DNA from: Bacillus sp. J33 | Lineage (GTDB): Bacteria > Bacillota > Bacilli > Bacillales > Cytobacillaceae | Reading direction: 5' to 3' | Assembly (NCBI RefSeq): GCF_000518885.1 | Contig: NZ_JAEL01000057.1 | Span: 1-34,804, forward strand | DNA: 34,804 nucleotides | Shown here: piece after piece, positions 969-18,590 of the stretch | Layout of the letters: every line of letters starts with the position of its first letter | Position numbering within the stretch: position 1 is the stretch's first letter | Made by a program: the position numbers and the translations under genes | The notes under the pieces: model-generated | What the model saw: the letters and a program-made list of their open reading frames with translations, nothing else | Database searches by the model: none | Told to the model about the DNA's origin: nothing

Positions 969-2030
969 TTAAAGAATAATCAATTCTTTGGTAGAATGAG
1001 TAAGCGTTTCATTATGATCCTTTGTAATTACTGTATCATCCTCAATCCGGACGCCGCCAAGGCCTGGTATGTAAATGCCCGGCTCTACCGTTACAACCAT
1101 GCCAGGTTCAAGAATAACATCAGACTTAAATGACAAGCCCGGCCCTTCATGCACTTCAAGGCCAATGCCATGGCCTGTAGAGTGGCCAAAGTATTCACCA
1201 TACCCTTTTTCTGTTATGTAGTCGCGCGTTAAGGCGTCTGCTTCTTTACCGCTCATTCCTGGTCTGATGCCTTCCATTCCCCGCTCCTGTGCTTCAAGCA
1301 CAATATTATAAATTTCTTTCAGCTTTTCTTCAGGTTCTCCGACAGCTACAGTACGGGTAATATCTGAAACATAGCCTTTATAATAAGCGCCGAAATCAAG
1401 AGTGACAAAATCTCCTTTTTCAATAACCTTATCGCTTGCCACTCCATGCGGAAGGGCAGAACGGTGCCCGGATGCCACGATAATATCAAATGATGATGAA
1501 ACTGCACCCGCTTTTCTCATAAAGAACTCTAATTCATTCGATACTTCCAGTTCAGTAATCCCCGGACGAATGACATTTAGAATATGTTTAAACGCAGCAT
1601 CTGCTATGTCAGCTGCCACCTTTATTATCTTAATCTCTGATTCAGTCTTAATCAAGCGTAACTTTTCAATTGTTCCGGAAACAGGAACAAGCTCTGCTTC
1701 AACTGCTTTTTCATAGGCTTTATAAGCGGAAAACGTTAGATGATCCTCTTCAAATCCAAGCTTTTTAATGCCAAGCTGTTTAACCTGTTCTGCGACTTCT
1801 TCAGGAATGGCGCCAGTATGCTTAACAATCTCATACCCTTCGCATTGTTTAGCAGCCTGCTCGGTATAGCGAAAATCAGTGATGAATAACGCTTTCTCTG
1901 CACTGATTAAAACTACGCCTGCCGATCCTGTAAAGCCTGTCATATAACGGCGGTTATAGCTGCTGGTAATCAGCATCCCATCTATGCCTGATTGATCAAA
2001 ACTTGCACGAAGCTTTTGAATTTTTTCCAT
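969..2030 (-). CDS. papQ: Xaa-Pro dipeptidase (M24 family aminopeptidase P type)
   Basis: The enzyme cleaves the bond next to proline in short peptides, in the cytoplasm, with two metal ions. It has 353 residues: an N-terminal creatinase-like domain (about 1-125) and a C-terminal pita-bread M24 domain. Visible metal ligands are the two Asp of the D-F-G-A-x-Y-x-G-Y-x-S-D segment, the His of S-T-G-H-G-I-G, and the Glu of V-E-P-G and of R-I-E-D-D. The ATG follows the aroQ stop by one base and has a GGGGAGAGG site, so it is probably translationally coupled to aroQ. It corresponds to B. subtilis yqhT. A link to efp through proline-related metabolism is often noted but remains inference. Confidence 0.94.
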   Translation of the reverse strand: MEKIQKLRASFDQSGIDGMLITSSYNRRYMTGFTGSAGVVLISAEKALFITDFRYTEQAAKQCEGYEIVKHTGAIPEEVAEQVKQLGIKKLGFEEDHLTFSAYKAYEKAVEAELVPVSGTIEKLRLIKTESEIKIIKVAADIADAAFKHILNVIRPGITELEVSNELEFFMRKAGAVSSSFDIIVASGHRSALPHGVASDKVIEKGDFVTLDFGAYYKGYVSDITRTVAVGEPEEKLKEIYNIVLEAQERGMEGIRPGMSGKEADALTRDYITEKGYGEYFGHSTGHGIGLEVHEGPGLSFKSDVILEPGMVVTVEPGIYIPGLGGVRIEDDTVITKDHNETLTHSTKELIIL

Positions 2031-2031
2031 A

Positions 2032-2478
2032 TTATCCTCTCCCCTTTATAAGATCCATTAAAGCATGAAAAGCCAATTCATAACCCTTTAGGCCAAGCCC
2101 GACAATTTGTCCGCGGGCCACAGGGGCAATGACAGATGTATGCCGGAATTCCTCCCGGGCATGAACATTAGAAATATGTACTTCGATGACAGGAACCTGA
2201 ATTCCTGCTATGGCATCCCTTATAGCATAGCTATAATGAGTGAATGCTCCAGGATTGAAGATGATACCTTGTATTCCGTCTTCATTGGCAAGGTGAAGCC
2301 TGTCTATTAATTCGCCTTCATGGTTTGATTGGAAACAGCATACTTCCATCTCATTAGATCTTCCCAATTCAATCAGGTTTTCTTCCAGACTCTTGAGTGT
2401 ATCGGTACCATAGACGCCCGGTTCACGCTTTCCGAGCAAATTTAAATTCGGCCCATTTAAAAGGAGTATCTTCCCCAT
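2032..2478 (-). CDS. aroQ: 3-dehydroquinate dehydratase, type II
   Basis: It catalyses step 3 of the shikimate pathway, 3-dehydroquinate to 3-dehydroshikimate, as a dodecamer. The product has 148 residues, typical for type II. The N-terminus K-I-L-L-L-N-G-P-N-L-N-L-L-G-K-R-E, with the catalytic Tyr in G-V-Y-G just after it, is diagnostic, as are the F-N-P-G-A-F-T-H-Y-S and E-V-H-I-S-N-V-H-A-R-E-x-F-R-H motifs. The frame opens 15 bases earlier, but the AGGGGG site sits between the two possible starts and points to the ATG at 2478. It is first in aroQ-papQ-efp and equals B. subtilis yqhS. aroK, another shikimate gene, is in this window at 18867. Confidence 0.95.
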   Translation of the reverse strand: MGKILLLNGPNLNLLGKREPGVYGTDTLKSLEENLIELGRSNEMEVCCFQSNHEGELIDRLHLANEDGIQGIIFNPGAFTHYSYAIRDAIAGIQVPVIEVHISNVHAREEFRHTSVIAPVARGQIVGLGLKGYELAFHALMDLIKGRG

Positions 2479-2810: not shown

Positions 2811-3344
2811 TTAATCAAGGATACTAGGGTCTGTGCGGGCCTTCTTTTCGTCCTCATTTTTGCCGCGCACTTCATGAGCTTCATATGATATGGAATACCC
2901 GACAAAAACCCCAAATAAAATATAGAAACAAATTGACGTGATAATCGTATTCCGTTCTAGCTCCCAGAACGGGCTAATCCCAGGGAATATTGGATTAAGA
3001 ATAAAAAATACAATTAAGAAAAGGGCAATCCCATACCCCGCTCCTATGAAGATACTTTGGAATTTTCTGAGAGCTGCATAATAAATAAGTGCAGCAATGA
3101 CTGAGATGCCTCCTATTAAGAGTATTGAGATGACCGTTCCCAGCCAGCCTTCTTTCCAAGCTCCTATTGTCCAGGGTTCAAGGATGACATTCGGTCTTAT
3201 CTCCGTGAAATTGAACACATAAGCCAAAAAGGCGAGCCCGCTCCATAGGATGCCGCCAACCAAACCAGTAATAACTACCATAGCCATAAATGACATTGGC
3301 TTTTCTCTCTGATTTTGTTCCAACTGCTCTTTTTCTTCTGCCAT
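2811..3344 (-). CDS. yqhR: YqhR-family membrane protein
   Basis: A 177-residue integral membrane protein with about four hydrophobic helices (roughly residues 18-42, 66-90, 97-117 and 134-155), an acidic/Gln-rich N-terminus and a charged C-terminus. It matches what is known of B. subtilis YqhR by position upstream of aroQ and by character; its function is unknown. A GTG three codons upstream of the chosen start overlaps the GGAGG ribosome site, so the ATG at 3344, 8 bases after GGAGG, is taken as the start. In B. subtilis yqhQ lies between this gene and yqhP; here there is only non-coding sequence. Confidence 0.8.
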   Translation of the reverse strand: MAEEKEQLEQNQREKPMSFMAMVVITGLVGGILWSGLAFLAYVFNFTEIRPNVILEPWTIGAWKEGWLGTVISILLIGGISVIAALIYYAALRKFQSIFIGAGYGIALFLIVFFILNPIFPGISPFWELERNTIITSICFYILFGVFVGYSISYEAHEVRGKNEDEKKARTDPSILD

Positions 3345-3825
3345 TTGTGCCACCTCCGTTTCCTATTATGCCCACACGTTTTTATTCCTTTGCATCATAA
3401 TAAAAATTATATGCAAATTGGTTGTTCCTCCCGGAGAAATGAAGATATTTTTAATATATTTCCTATTCTATAGAGGTTTTTTGGGGTTTTAGGTCGAATA
3501 AAATTAATATGTGGAAATAAATTTTTACTCTCCCCGGAAAAGAGACCTATTTCTATAAAAGAGTGTACCGGGATTGGAGATTGGAGCATAAATTTTAATA
3601 AGGAGCGAACTCCAGGAGAGTGCGCAAATTTTTTTACTGTCTGTATTAGAAATGGAAATTGGCTAGTAAAAAACGTTAAAATTGCCAATCCTTTGTTTAA
3701 AATGTAAACAAATTGGAAAAGAAAAAACGGAAGAAAACTTTTTGTGAAGAATTCACTTAAACTTTTTCATATATAGTTTAAAAGCTTATAAATTTGCTCA
3801 TCATGCTTTTAGGGAGGTGGCTTTC
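3345..3825. other. AT-rich intergenic region between divergent yqhR and yqhP
   Basis: About 480 bases without a convincing gene; the one long minus-strand frame (3407-3688) has no ribosome site and no recognisable product. At 3685-3716 there is an inverted repeat: CCAAT, 3 extra bases, TTGTTTA, then AAATG, then TAAACAA-ATTGG. Its inner 7+7 bp are perfect. A second, weaker repeat (CTTAAACT ... AGTTTAAAAG) lies at about 3756-3785, just before the yqhP ribosome site. These are operator candidates for one or both divergent genes. Confidence 0.4.
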
Positions 3826-5403: not shown

Positions 5404-7170
5404 TTATAAGCCGCATTTTAGCTGTGCATTACAGTTTGTACATGTATTGCATCCGCCAATTTCTTTGACTTTCCCTTTGCGGCAAACAGGACATGTATTG
5501 CCAACTTCTGAACCGATGGTTACATCTGTTGAACGAAGGTCGCTGATGGTATCCACAAGCACCACATGCTGCTTGTTTTTCTCTTTCTTAACAGTGTCTG
5601 TATCATCAAAGCTGTTCTCTTCAGCTTTAAGTGTTAAGACCTGGGAATCGCGTGATCCGTCAACATATACCGTACCGCCCTTTGCACCGCCGCGATACAG
5701 GCGTTCATATACTTTTTCTACCTGTTCAACACTATACCCCTTCGGCGCATTTACCGTTTTGCTTATTGAGCTGTCAATCCAGCGCTGAATCACACATTGA
5801 ACATCTGCATGCGCTTCAGGGGCCAAATCCATTGCTGCCACAAACCATTCAGGCAAGTTATCCGGATCAGCTTCGGGGTTGCGGTCTAAATATTCCTGAA
5901 CAATATCTGCCTTTACTTCAATAAACTTCCCTAAGCGGCCGCTTCTGAAGTATGAGAAGGAGAAATATGGTTCGAGGCCTGTAGAAACTCCCACCATGGT
6001 ACCTGTGGATCCAGTCGGAGCAACAGTTAACAGATGTGAATTGCGGATTCCGTTTTCTAAAATCGATTCACGAATATCCTCCGGCATTTTCTGCATAAAG
6101 CCTGTTTCTGTAAATGCTTTGCGCAGGCGATTCGTTTCTTCTGCAGTCTCGCCTGTTAAGAATGGGAAGCTTCCTTTTTCCTTAGCAAGCTCTACAGAAG
6201 CTCTGTAGGCTGTTGTTGCGATTGTCTCAAACACCTTGTCAATCAGCATATTTCCTTCTTCTGAACCGTATTCCGTTTCACAATAGATCAGCAAATCATG
6301 TAGCCCCATAACTCCAAGGCCAACACGGCGCTCACCCAATGCCTGCTTTTTGTTCTCTTCAAGGAAGTATGGTGTTGCATCAATTACATTGTCCTGCATG
6401 CGTACGCCTACTTCGACTGTACGCTTCAGCTTTTCAAAGTTTACTGTCTTGTTTTCCTTGTCTGCCATTTCTGCCAGATTCACTGCTGCAAGGTTACAGA
6501 CAGAGTATGGTGCGAGAGGCTGTTCCCCACAAGGGTTTGTTGCTACAACCTTCTGCCCATATGCCTGTGCATTTGTCATATCGTTTGCATTATCGATAAA
6601 GAAAATGCCCGGCTCTGCTGAGTAAGTTGCACAGATATTAATCAGGTTCCAAAGTTCTTTCGCTTTAATCTTGCGATGAACTCGAACTTTATACCCGAGT
6701 TTCTCCCATTCTCTTACGTCTCCGACTTTGTGCCATTCTTCATTATAAATTTTCATGGTCTCAGCATCGTAGGATTCTACATCCGGGAAACGAAGTTCAT
6801 ACTCTGTATCGTTCTCAACTGCGTCCATAAATTCTTTTGTCAGGCAGACTGAAATGTTTGCGCCTGTCAGGAATTCAGGATTATGGACACTGTAAGTGCC
6901 GCCAGCAGCCAGCTTTTCCTCTGCATCCTTGATGATCTTCTCGCTGAATCCGCCGTAGCCAGGAATGCTCTTGTAATTAACAATTCCCTGGTACATTGCG
7001 GTTTCCTGCTCAGTGAAAGGAGTAAACTTTAATTTTTCTTTTGCATATTTTTTAATTGTTCCATCATTTGTATTTTCAAGAAGGAATCGTAAAATCCTTG
7101 GATTTTGCATTTTAGATATGATGAATTCAATAATGTCCGGATGCCAATCAGATAGCATAATCATTTGAGC
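5404..7170 (-). CDS. nrdJ: Class II (B12-dependent) ribonucleotide reductase, exon 2
   Basis: This is the larger exon, 588 codons before the stop, of a gene split by a group I intron. Joined to exon 1 (8426-9220) it gives an 853-residue adenosylcobalamin-dependent reductase that makes deoxyribonucleotides from ribonucleotides. Spliced residues 477-481 are N-P-C-G-E, holding the thiyl-radical Cys479 with its Asn and Glu. S-V-C-N-L follows with Cys490, the partner of the redox pair. P-T-G-S-T-G-T (the conserved C-terminal barrel loop) is also present. The C-terminus has a Cys-rich tail (C-P-V-C, then G-G-C-N-T-C-T-N-C and C-G-L) typical of NrdJ zinc/redox tails. An in-frame TTG at 7173 is intron sequence and not a start; an unspliced annotation would wrongly begin there. 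Confidence 0.93.
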   Translation of the reverse strand, partial: AQMIMLSDWHPDIIEFIISKMQNPRILRFLLENTNDGTIKKYAKEKLKFTPFTEQETAMYQGIVNYKSIPGYGGFSEKIIKDAEEKLAAGGTYSVHNPEFLTGANISVCLTKEFMDAVENDTEYELRFPDVESYDAETMKIYNEEWHKVGDVREWEKLGYKVRVHRKIKAKELWNLINICATYSAEPGIFFIDNANDMTNAQAYGQKVVATNPCGEQPLAPYSVCNLAAVNLAEMADKENKTVNFEKLKRTVEVGVRMQDNVIDATPYFLEENKKQALGERRVGLGVMGLHDLLIYCETEYGSEEGNMLIDKVFETIATTAYRASVELAKEKGSFPFLTGETAEETNRLRKAFTETGFMQKMPEDIRESILENGIRNSHLLTVAPTGSTGTMVGVSTGLEPYFSFSYFRSGRLGKFIEVKADIVQEYLDRNPEADPDNLPEWFVAAMDLAPEAHADVQCVIQRWIDSSISKTVNAPKGYSVEQVEKVYERLYRGGAKGGTVYVDGSRDSQVLTLKAEENSFDDTDTVKKEKNKQHVVLVDTISDLRSTDVTIGSEVGNTCPVCRKGKVKEIGGCNTCTNCNAQLKCGL

Positions 7171-7411
7171 CAATTTGTTATGTTGGTTCGTTACACCAAC
7201 CCTCTAGGTCACCCTAGAGTTCAGACCATATCTTATACCTTTTTGGTATCCTCGCACTTCGGAAGCACTTGCTTCCTACTCTACTCCCTTCCACCTAGAG
7301 GTGTGGTTTCGATGGTCGTTGAACCTTCTCCACTCTTTCGAGACAGGAGCTTGGCTGCTGATTGTCTTTTTCCACTTGCTGTTTTCAAGCATTCACGCTT
7401 ACCGTTTCCAG

Positions 7412-8299
7412 TTACGTTGTAGCCAGCAAGTCATTTATGATGCCTTTGACATACCCTATGTTATTGAGTATATCATCTTCCCAAAAGCGAACAATTCGGT
7501 ATCCATTGCTCTCTGCGATCTCATTTTTCACTTGGTCAATTTTTATTCTTTCGACTTGCCATTCCGCAGGTTCCGGATAAAACTTGGGGTTGGCATGCCA
7601 ATAATCCCCATCGCACTCAATAATCAGATTATACTTCTTTAGAAGGAAATCATATTGCCTCTTTTGAAGAATGAAAGAATATTGGTATTCAGTATTCAAT
7701 TCCTTTAAGTACTCTTCCATTATTTCTTCTATTATTGTCTTTTTGAAAATCTGATTTTCCATCTGTTTCAGCGTGGCCTGTCGAATCTTTTCAATAGTCT
7801 CATCACTGTAGATATTTGTCTTTCCACTATTCCATGAAGGGGTATTATTCTCTCTTCTTGTCTTAGCTGTTTTAGATATAATATTTTTGAAATGCTTTTC
7901 TTTTGCCTCTCCATTCATAGATTCATGCCAGGCTTTCGTTCGTGATGACCTAAGTTGCCCTTCGCAATCTTCACTGCATGTTTTAGTTTCCCTATGGGGT
8001 CTTGTGCTTGTATCAAACTTGTTGTTACATACTACGCACACCAGAGGCTCTCCTTTGTTCCCGCAGGACGCTGAGCAATATTTCTTAGGCTTTCCTCTAC
8101 GAAGCCTTACAGACTTATGACAGAGTTCGTAAGAGCATTTCAAATCTTCTGGAGCATAATAGTAGTGTATTAAATATCCTTCCAGTGTTAGGCCATGTTC
8201 ATTTTTGATATGCGATGTAAATCGACCTTGCTTGTTATGAGAAATTTGGAATCCGCAAATGTTACATTTCTGAGATTCTTTTGCATCATACGGCCGCAT
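7412..8299 (-). CDS. Intron-encoded homing endonuclease, zinc-finger + NUMOD3-like + Vsr-like nuclease
   Basis: A free-standing frame inside the nrdJ intron, 295 residues from the ATG at 8299, which follows GAGGTGAT; the upstream GTG is inside that site. It begins with a C2H2-like finger (Cys12, Cys15, His30, His35), followed by further Cys pairs (55/60, 75/79, 88/91, 108/112) that suggest two more metal knuckles. Then comes a S-W-N-S-G-K-x-N-x-Y-S-D-E-T-I-E-K-I segment like NUMOD3 DNA-binding repeats. The C-terminal nuclease has Y-D-F-L-L, then I-I-E-C-D-G-D-Y-W-H-A-N-P (Glu228, Asp230, Asp232, His235), as in Vsr / EDxHD-type nucleases such as the phage enzyme I-Bth0305I. It likely cuts intron-less nrdJ near the insertion site to spread the intron. 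Activity is inferred. Confidence 0.85.
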   Translation of the reverse strand: MRPYDAKESQKCNICGFQISHNKQGRFTSHIKNEHGLTLEGYLIHYYYAPEDLKCSYELCHKSVRLRRGKPKKYCSASCGNKGEPLVCVVCNNKFDTSTRPHRETKTCSEDCEGQLRSSRTKAWHESMNGEAKEKHFKNIISKTAKTRRENNTPSWNSGKTNIYSDETIEKIRQATLKQMENQIFKKTIIEEIMEEYLKELNTEYQYSFILQKRQYDFLLKKYNLIIECDGDYWHANPKFYPEPAEWQVERIKIDQVKNEIAESNGYRIVRFWEDDILNNIGYVKGIINDLLATT

Positions 8300-8314
8300 G
8301 TTAATCACCTCAAG

Positions 8315-8336
8315 AATATAATATATCCATTATATT
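8315..8336 (-). promoter_or_regulatory. Hairpin just upstream of the endonuclease ribosome site
   Basis: A perfect 8-bp inverted repeat AATATAAT-N6-ATTATATT ends a few bases before the GAGGTGAT site of the intron endonuclease. It also contains a TATAAT-like box. It could weaken translation from the nrdJ transcript or be a promoter for the endonuclease alone. Both readings are inference; similar gating hairpins are known for T4 intron genes. Confidence 0.4.
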
Positions 8337-8425
8337 ACAATTGGGTGACATTCACTATGCATAGCCATAAAGAGTTCCCAGCAATTCACGAGGTTTATTT
8401 ATAGACGAGGCACTTAAGCTGATTT

Positions 8426-9220
8426 ACCACGTCTGGACCCTCCCTGCTCCACAAGGTGAGTCAGTTTCGCAATGTCGTCCAGCCAGGAGACGGACCCTGA
8501 AGATTTTCCGTTAACCCCTTTTGCCAGTGTGTTGCGAGGTCTTAGAGTAGAACCATTTGTTCCAACTCCGCCGCCGCGGCTCATGATTTCCATGACCTGC
8601 TTGCGGTGCTCAGAGATTCCTTCTCGGGAATCCTGCACAAACGGCATTACGTAACAGTTGAAATATGTTACATCAGTGTCTGCCCCCGCTCCATATAAAA
8701 CACGGCCGGCTGGAATAAAGTGCAGGTTTTTCAATTCCTGGTAGAACTTTTCAAACCATTCTTTTCTCTTTTCTTCGGTTTTCTCTACGGATGCAAGGCC
8801 TGTTGCGTTACGCTTGGCAATTTGCTCATAAAAGATTTCCAGCGGTTTTTCTATAACATCCAGCGGTTTTGTAATTATGCCCGTCCTGGCTTCTTCCGGA
8901 TCATCGAGAACTCCTCTGTAATCTTCCTCTACTAAAACCTTGGCTGTCTTGTTTTCCCAGTCAATATCCAGGATGAAGCCCAGACCGCGTGCAGGAAATT
9001 TTGGATCTTCTTTGATAGTGAGGACAACGAAGTCACCATTTGTCAGTGTCACTTTCTCGGTGTCTTTGAAAGTGTATCTGTCCAGCATGACTAAGCGTGA
9101 AACACCTTTGTGGGTCATTTTCATATCCGGGGTTACAGGGTGAACCTGAGGAAATAAACGGATGTCCTTATTTAAACGGTCAATATTCAATTTCATTTTT
9201 TGTCCTAGCGCAACAGACAT
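8426..9220 (-). CDS. nrdJ: Class II (B12-dependent) ribonucleotide reductase, exon 1
   Basis: This exon encodes residues 1-265 of the spliced 853-residue NrdJ. Visible family features are F-I-P-A-G-R-x-L-Y-G-A-G (about 168-179), F-N-C-Y-V-M-P with Cys189 (the N-terminal member of the redox Cys pair), and the G-G-G-V-G-x-N-x-S-x-L-R-P phosphate/substrate loop (about 216-228). The exon closes on G-G-S-R-R-G. Read without splicing, the frame runs only three codons into the intron (K-S-A) and stops at 8414. The ATG at 9220 has GAAGGAG 7-8 bases upstream. The gene needs adenosylcobalamin and no oxygen. Two NrdR-box-like sites upstream suggest repression by NrdR. Confidence 0.93.
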
Positions 9221-15232: not shown

Positions 15233-15384
15233 GCACCTGAAAGTTTACCGAAACCGGCTTTCCCCTTGGGTGGCTCCATAAAAAGAGCGCTCTCCAGAGC
15301 TGCGTCAAACAAGAGTTCTTTTGCCTGAGAGATTCACAGGTGATTTGCTTGCTCCTTCGGCGCTACAAACGTAGTCTCTCCCCT
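15224..15384 (-). promoter_or_regulatory. Tandem glycine riboswitch
   Basis: Two consecutive glycine aptamers lie in the gcvT leader. Aptamer I opens with GGGGAGAGAC (15383-15374), carries GCCGAAGGAGCAA and closes with CTCTCAGGCAAAAG. Aptamer II opens at CTCTGGAGAGCGCTC (about 15307-15293), has CACCCAAGGGGAAAG and closes with CTTTCAGGTGCAAGGAC. Both show the conserved core of the gcvT RNA motif. Binding of glycine should disrupt the downstream terminator and switch on gcvT-PA-PB. Confidence 0.95.
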
Positions 15385-15544
15385 TGTTATCATTCGCATT
15401 TATAAAATTTTCCAAGTTGGTCATACTTATACCAAACAGAAAAAAGTGATTCCATTATTTCGGTAAACTAAATTTAATGTGTTAACTTTCTAAACTTTCA
15501 AAGCTACTATCATCCTACCACCTAAACCCGGTTTGGGCAATATG

Positions 15545-18340: not shown

Positions 18341-18590
18341 GCGTCTAGCTCCAGCGCCTAGCCAGTTTTCATCCCGAATAGGCTCCCCTGAATATCTTGC
18401 GAGGAGCATGATTTGGAGAATGATGCTTCGAGCAGCTCGGGTCATAAGCCAAATCACTCCAGAAATTAAGATTTCCAGCGTGATTCGTCTTATGCCTGAG
18501 GCCCGCAGGATTCGGGTCATGCAGACGTTGCCACAGGACGTGGCTTAAGTCTGTGTTCCTTTAGTGGTCAAGGAGCTTCCGCTTTTGTTC
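18341..18590. repeat. Dispersed Bacillus-type intergenic repeat
   Basis: The segment begins with TCTAGCTCCAGCGCCTAG and ends with AAGGAGCTTCCGCTTTTGTT, end phrases familiar from a repeat scattered through many Bacillaceae chromosomes. The AGCTCC / GGAGCT ends are inverted. Near the right end is a hairpin, GCCAC-AGGAC-GTGGC with outer GAC/GTC, at about 18523-18552. Open frames in both directions across it have no ribosome sites and are ignored. It sits between the convergent yqhG and yqzE. The repeat status rests on recognition only. Confidence 0.6.

Follow-up and report, generated by a model that had tools for sequence, protein, structure and literature searches.

We analyzed a window of 34,804 nucleotides (nt) from the draft genome of Bacillus sp. 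J33 (contig NZ_JAEL01000057.1), in which the gene for a class II, B12-dependent ribonucleotide reductase (RNR), nrdJ, is interrupted by a group I intron directly after its conserved GGSRRG codons. The intron carries an open reading frame (ORF) for a predicted endonuclease. The main features at the locus are:

8426 to 9220, minus strand: nrdJ exon 1, codons 1-265, ending GGSRRG; match to NCBIfam PRK08115, E 3.5e-152, 508 bits
7171 to 8425, minus strand: group I intron, 1255 nt, phase 0, last base G (omega G)
7412 to 8299, minus strand: intron ORF, 295 amino acids, start context GAGGTGATTAACATG at 8311-8297
5404 to 7170, minus strand: nrdJ exon 2, codons 266-853 plus stop, beginning AQMIML; match to PRK08115, 1191 bits (cut-off 854)

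When exon 1 (795 nt) and exon 2 (1767 nt including the stop) are joined, they form a single open frame of 853 amino acids without an internal stop. On the PRK08115 model exon 1, queried without its last codon, occupies positions 2-264 and exon 2 positions 266-858; as these matches are contiguous, no residues are lost at the join. The boundaries at 8425 and 7171 and the exact in-frame join of GGSRRG to AQMIML, which had been proposed in an earlier reading of the sequence alone (the sequence-only reading), are thereby confirmed. That reading was also right in seeing a group I ribozyme, but the element is more than a ribozyme, and the ORF at 8299-7412 had gone unmentioned. Exon 2 alone passes the equivalog cut-off of 854 of the class II model PRK08115, and the match of the product is full-length.

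In the unspliced nrdJ mRNA, a stop is reached after three intron codons. The window's NrdJ is under strong constraint, as its ratio of nonsynonymous to synonymous substitution rates (dN/dS) was 0.017-0.022 in comparisons with six congeneric relatives picked out of 28, and a pair of uninterrupted nrdJ genes gave an equal ratio (0.0185/0.993). Since NrdJ is so constrained, the intron would have to be removed in life, and the earlier proposal that full-length NrdJ depends on splicing is well supported by inference. Comparison with intron-less relatives, which the same reading had recommended, showed nrdJ to be uninterrupted in 27 out of 36 congeneric genomes. Besides NrdJ, the source genome encodes the alpha subunit of a class I enzyme (1233 bits to PRK09209), which means that NrdJ is not necessarily its only reductase.

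Ribozyme fold and guide sequence

The covariance search suggested by the sequence-only reading, made with Rfam model RF00028, matched the intron at 7449-7202 with 51.4 bits (cut-off 50). An ORF-less sister intron at the same site in a congener (L002, genome G010), which is 92% identical to the window's intron across 248 bases of the 3' part, scored 80.5 bits. The low score of the window's intron is therefore probably caused by the 295-amino-acid ORF, which splits the ribozyme. The helices are as follows:

8403 to 8434, minus strand: P1; exon 8434-8426 AGACGUGGU (= AGACGTGGT), internal guide sequence (IGS) 8411-8403 GCCUCGUCU (= GCCTCGTCT)
8389 to 8393, minus strand: P3, 5' strand CCTCG, partner CGAGG 7254-7250
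8379 to 8384, minus strand: P4, 5' strand TTGCTG, partner CAGCAG 7360-7355
8369 to 8373, minus strand: P5, 5' strand TCTTT, partner AAAGA 7369-7365; ORF inside the P5 loop
7375 to 7430, minus strand: P5a, CTTGCTG 7430-7424 and CAGCAAG 7381-7375; six of seven pairs vary two-sided
7328 to 7349, minus strand: P6, CTCC/GGAG
7312 to 7317, minus strand: P7, 5' strand GACCAT, partner ATGGTC 7229-7224
7261 to 7303, minus strand: two hairpins between P7 5' and P3 3', CACCT/AGGTG and GGAAGC/GCTTCC
7235 to 7249, minus strand: P8, ATACC/GGTAT
7202 to 7219, minus strand: P9 hairpin, CTCTAGG-GTGA-CCTAGAG
7182 to 7200, minus strand: hairpin 3' of P9, GTTGG/CCAAC; five of five pairs with two-sided changes

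P7 (GACCAT/ATGGTC), P9 with its GTGA loop and the terminal G are all as the sequence-only reading described them. Its P1 needed correction: the nine positions and the U.G at the splice site stand, but only eight of the positions pair and one is a U.U mismatch. The position of P5 was set by comparison with ORF-less introns (e.g., L002 and L003), and the 5' strand of P5a doubles as the coding sequence of the ORF end (DLLATT-stop). The hairpins at 7261-7303, with two-sided changes in 5/5 pairs of CACCT/AGGTG and 4/6 of GGAAGC/GCTTCC, sit where P7.1 and P7.2 would be expected. Subgroup IA presumably has additional hairpins in this interval, from P7 5' to P3 3', and the window's intron has two covarying ones there.

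The fold was analyzed in an alignment of 21 introns of the 265/266 site, comprising the window's intron with its ORF excised together with 20 out of 22 further unique introns no longer than 360 nt. L178 and L194 were left out beforehand, their sequence being from another intron lineage. A model of 14 helices was drawn on the window's sequence and its 76 pairs were scored over the 21 introns. The pairing in this model is not due to chance: 98.9% of the 1595 cells were paired, compared to 35-44% when 3' partners were slid and 91.6% after shuffling, and two-sided changes were present in 32 of the 76 pairs, a number reached in 0 of 500 shuffles. The core is present in P3/P7 pseudoknot order, with paired cells at 100% in P3, P4 and P6, 99.2% in P7 and 98.1% in P8. 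The covarying pairs were located in P5, in P5a with its inner stems, in P6, P8 and P9, and in three additional hairpins.

Among 102 unique introns at four neighboring sites in nrdJ (see below), the best P1 score averaged 16.3, as against 7.8 with exons of other sites and 7.7 with shuffled introns. P1 was poor (score of 10 or less) in L146, L147, L148, L149, L152, L190 and the 273/274 intron of L199, and the guide lay implausibly late in L142 and L143. In L068, L184 and L207 the guide changes to match synonymous exon codons; it also tracks synonymous codons in L215, L216, L217 and L219, where pairing was judged by eye. Across three batches of loci, RF00028 exceeded its cut-off in 18/20 (the two failing, L150 and L161, each having an ORF), in 7/20 (including a flagellin locus, L211) and in 0/6.

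The predicted endonuclease and its relatives

The intron ORF encodes three invariant Cys/His or Cys quartets, probably zinc fingers, followed by a nuclease domain of the Vsr/EDxHD fold, and it is of the Vsr type by its fold. Residues D217, E228, D230, D232 and H235 are invariant across nine homologues; the window's full-length ORF has retained the residues that do not vary among them. The ratio of nonsynonymous to synonymous differences (pN/pS) in the family was 0.19-0.41. The product would most likely cut intronless nrdJ across the conserved stretch.

Searches for relatives were made in several genome sets. Within the genus, 6/36 genomes matched the ORF at E 0.001, five of them weakly (26-37% identity). 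In a sample of 397 genomes of the order, 14 matched at E 1e-6; 13, including the window, did so at nrdJ 265/266 (for one of them, G291, only the side of exon 1 was read), and G241 gave a weak match with no adjoining nrdJ. A wider set of genome contigs yielded 29 loci with a match to the ORF, 14 at nrdJ 265/266, 14 weak ones without an adjoining nrdJ, and one fragment (L101) directly before nrdJ exon 2. In a sample of the class, 8/398 genomes matched at E 1e-8, namely the window, six at nrdJ 265/266 and a weak one without nrdJ. These counts are not additive because of overlap between the sets: the order and contig sets share five identical introns, and the class loci L214, L218 and L219 share match values with L087, L089 and L090. 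A tblastn search of plasmids with the ORF gave no match at 1e-5. Hosts named in the contig set include Oceanobacillus, Tuberibacillus, Domibacillus, Metabacillus, Rossellomorea, Sutcliffiella, Sporosarcina, Aneurinibacillus, Pallidibacillus and Ornithinibacillus.

The close relatives of the ORF that were found lie at nrdJ 265/266. The site is identical even in L089, L090, L217, L218 and L219, in which exon 1 shares just 41-42% identity with NrdJ of the window. The endonuclease and NrdJ trees conflict: in approximately unbiased (AU) tests, a sister relationship of the two Domibacillus is rejected by the endonuclease data (p-AU 0.001), and a grouping of the window with Domibacillus M46 by the NrdJ data (p-AU 1.75e-41). 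Within the genus, G010 has the intron without an ORF and 27 congeners have no intron.

A probable hotspot for introns in nrdJ

Many related bacteria have similar or unrelated introns at the window's site or within 10 codons of it. A 124-amino-acid fragment spanning the site, used as the query at E 1e-13, matched in 347 of the 397 order genomes. Two or more matches were present in 85 genomes, and 82 of these 85 showed the split pattern of two half-length matches. With 82 of 347 matched genomes split at this spot, the view in the sequence-only reading that nrdJ is a less usual host did not hold. There were also five odd cases (G051, whose match runs into the contig end, G159, G164, G237 and G386). 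Of the split genomes, 81/82 were mapped to the base and G291 on the exon 1 side only. In the 81 genomes there were 40 introns at 265/266, 26 at 263/264, 6 at 264/265 and 18 at 273/274, all four sites being phase 0 and within ten codons of one another. Two introns were present in 9 of the 81, leaving between them an in-frame exon of 30 nt in eight genomes and 24 nt in one.

The 3' cores of all 102 unique introns, a set that reaches beyond the order sample, were placed in a tree. It united 27, 6 and 5 introns of 263/264, 264/265 and 265/266, respectively, in one lineage (support 0.999) and 22 introns of 273/274 in another (0.971). The remaining 42 introns of 265/266 cluster without support (0.075), so that two lineages are firm and three are likely. 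Intron ORFs of at least 200 amino acids fell into three BLAST clusters of 17 (including four duplicate loci), 11 and 6. Based on Pfam searches with five representatives, a Vsr-like cluster is found at 265/266 and an HNH cluster at 273/274, and the LAGLIDADG cluster has seven members at 263/264, one at 264/265 and three at 265/266. An automatic "remnant" class was not used for counts, as many of its matches (LAGLIDADG residues 1-27, Vsr residues 287-308) were mere translations of the ribozyme core.

Codons 263-265 read AGA-CGT-GGT in 43/47 unique carriers of a 265/266 intron versus 3/57 uninterrupted loci, the latter a non-random draw of 27 congeners and the 30 best order matches in which G019 is counted twice. 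This footprint may result from homing with flanking sequence, from selection for P1, or from both. Sliding identity to G010 and the 27 uninterrupted congeners gave no clear wide co-conversion tract beyond the last exon 1 codons; at nt 765-825, the window's gene was 90.0% identical to that of G010, and identity to uninterrupted genes averaged 81.4% and was at best 86.7%.

We consider it likely that these 30 nt of nrdJ (GGSR to WHP) form a hotspot on which homing has converged in Bacilli, with two or three intron lineages and three unrelated endonuclease families (Vsr-like, LAGLIDADG and HNH) at four in-frame sites. One lineage would have shifted by 1-2 codons with a re-tuned guide, and twin introns would leave a micro-exon of 8-10 codons that needs splicing on both sides. 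Across many sequenced species, this one short stretch of nrdJ shows every stage of the homing cycle (empty site, intact ORF, broken ORF and ORF-less intron), and the gain, decay, loss and site-shifting of bacterial group I introns become countable rather than anecdotal. The findings are also a warning for annotation, since nrdJ is often split in this group and gene callers blind to introns report fragments.

Other nrdJ genes had further features. By the best in-frame mapping, the 265/266 introns of L141 (G140) and of L070 and L091 (Pallidibacillus) end in A, the Pallidibacillus intron being 1953 nt. Inserts of ~230-360 nt, with group I-like motifs by eye, were observed at codons 480/481 (NPCG|EQPL) in L067 (about 3284-3554), L081 (about 6778-7008), L216 (about 615-257) and L212 (about 3442-3731), and longer gaps at that position in L090 and L101. 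The inserts of L067 and L081 had no Rfam match, that of L067 not even at E 5. L212 (NZ_CP045273.1 847033-852324) is an nrdJ carried by a Priestia megaterium plasmid of 1.08 Mb; this gene has inserts at 265/266 as well as at 480/481, and the plasmid could be a vehicle for spread. Downstream of the 273/274 intron of L146 (G076) is a further group I match of 89.3 bits (1892-2125, plus strand), which indicates that nrdJ probably has sites beyond the four described. In L071 (G068), whose nrdJ also bears a 265/266 group I intron, two Rfam group II intron matches (915-1013 and 3150-3332) adjoin the exon pieces on the same strand.

Proposed mechanism and alternatives

Overall, we are confident in reading the window's element as a mobile group I intron, kept by homing and horizontal spread, whose exons are predicted to be joined by splicing and whose ORF is predicted to encode a homing endonuclease. 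The nrdJ pre-mRNA would fold into the ribozyme, with P1 pairing the last bases of exon 1 (...GGU) to the IGS; a guanosine cofactor would initiate splicing, with the final intron G predicted to act as omega G, and the exons would be joined in frame to restore GGSRRG-AQM, as the sequence, covariation and P1 suggest. Translation of the ORF in the P5 loop, beginning at a start codon within the intron, would yield an endonuclease of the Vsr fold (EDxHD type). Its fold, the selection on it and its restriction to one site suggest that it would cut intronless nrdJ, repair then copying the intron in. The intron would be tolerated because splicing leaves NrdJ intact, and would persist via homing and horizontal spread, decaying to broken-ORF and ORF-less forms.

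Several observations weigh against this interpretation. No two-sided change was observed in P1, P3, P4 or P7 across the 21 introns; P4 is invariant and P1, P3 and P7 nearly so, and little or no covariation support therefore comes from the core helices P3, P4 and P7. The RF00028 score of the window's intron is only 1.4 bits above the cut-off, endonuclease-bearing introns mostly fall below it, and 2/102 introns (L141 and L070) end in A instead of G. The predicted structure of the ORF product has a predicted template modeling score (pTM) of 0.42, residues 231-250, which include part of the conserved ECDGDYWH, have a mean predicted local distance difference test score (pLDDT) of 55-68, and a sequence search of the Protein Data Bank with the ORF gave nothing up to E 1. 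The correspondence of the five invariant residues to the active site of I-Bth0305I is presumed. The groups tested in the trees were picked after a first FastTree look, with ten rows per tree. Finally, a close relative of the ORF is present within the genus in the window alone (1/36 genomes), and present activity in this strain is therefore putative.

It is possible, although we doubt it, that the intron splices and is no longer mobile, with its endonuclease dead or silent and its inheritance vertical. Decay is common at 265/266, where there are many ORF-less introns and where Vsr-type ORFs are broken in L069, L072, L073, L074, L081, L086, L093 and L094. However, the window's ORF is intact with its invariant residues, its family shows the pN/pS values given above, its tree conflicts with that of NrdJ, and the distribution within the genus (G010 without the ORF, 27 congeners free of the intron) speaks against an immobile intron. 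An improbable alternative is that the intron is a regulatory switch, with splicing dependent on growth state or a cofactor setting the NrdJ level beside the class I enzyme. The class I alpha subunit means that NrdJ could be conditional, and the early stop in unspliced mRNA would suit such a switch. Yet the 265/266 intron is patchy, occurring in 2/34 such nrdJ genes of the genus; this patchiness, like the fact that unrelated introns take its place, suggests that the intron is tolerated rather than that it has a common regulatory function, and no riboswitch was found in the intron at Rfam cut-offs.

We regard it as highly improbable that there is no splicing and that NrdJ is made as two assembling pieces, like a split phage reductase. 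This is because conservation is seen in P1, in the P3/P7 core and at omega G, the covariation is strong, and the IGS tracks synonymous exon changes in several introns, which would be needless for protein assembly. Such an arrangement has a precedent in nrdA of phage Aeh1, described as split without an intron yet functional (PMC3653736), and a TTG at 7173 could serve as a start codon for exon 2. An assembly artefact or chimeric contig has a negligible probability: the genome is a draft of 196 contigs, but the same intron and ORF layout occurs at the same codons in many other assemblies, and the similarity of the ORF-less sister intron in G010 likewise argues against a chimera.

Other RNA elements

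Two other structured RNAs were identified in the window by Rfam:

15303 to 15393, minus strand (15393-15303): glycine riboswitch aptamer, upstream of an ORF at 15142-14036 that looks like gcvT
18502 to 18565, minus strand (18565-18502): Bacillaceae-1 RNA

Elsewhere in the source genome, a flagellin gene contains two additional group I introns that exceed the Rfam cut-off (L211, G000:C190:47500-53000, at 1941-2293 and 1501-1830, minus strand), and near them is a possible LAGLIDADG-like ORF, labeled by eye, on the opposite strand.

Comparison with known systems

Group I introns are well known from RNR genes (PMC2795772, PMC3984707, PMC3653736). More than 100 such introns are described as curated in the entries of RNRdb by 2009 (PMC2795772), and recA and nrdE of Bacillus species are among the hosts listed in a review (PMC3984707). 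A literature search found no account of the nrdJ intron site in Bacillaceae, which is weak evidence of absence as subscription papers were mostly outside its coverage; nor did it find in print a hotspot in nrdJ of Bacilli with four sites, three endonuclease families and micro-exons. The window's intron shares its ribozyme class and kind of host gene with the nrdE, nrdF and nrdB introns of phages and Bacillus, and differs in that its host is a class II nrdJ with introns at four neighboring sites in a large share of one order. Uninterrupted congener nrdJ genes of the PRK08115 type encode the same full-length protein and have no intron.

Vsr-type homing endonucleases are likewise already known (PMC3943268, PMC11878797), and PHROG 559 proteins with a VSR domain are reported in introns of phage terminase genes (PMC11878797). 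The window's ORF matches PHROG 559 at 7.9e-13. Its relatives in Bacilli are ~50-75% identical to it and those in seven phage records 22-32%, and a phage Goe9 protein adjoining the terminase gene has 28.2% identity over 98% of the ORF length. Like I-Bth0305I and the PHROG 559 endonucleases, the ORF product has a Vsr fold and a modular N-terminal part and is encoded in a group I intron; unlike theirs, its target gene is nrdJ. A small exon between two group I introns has been seen in reads from the reductase large subunit gene of phage phiNIT1 (PMC11878797). The kind of intron, the Vsr-type endonuclease and the small exon between RNR introns are thus already known, and the window's element is a further case.
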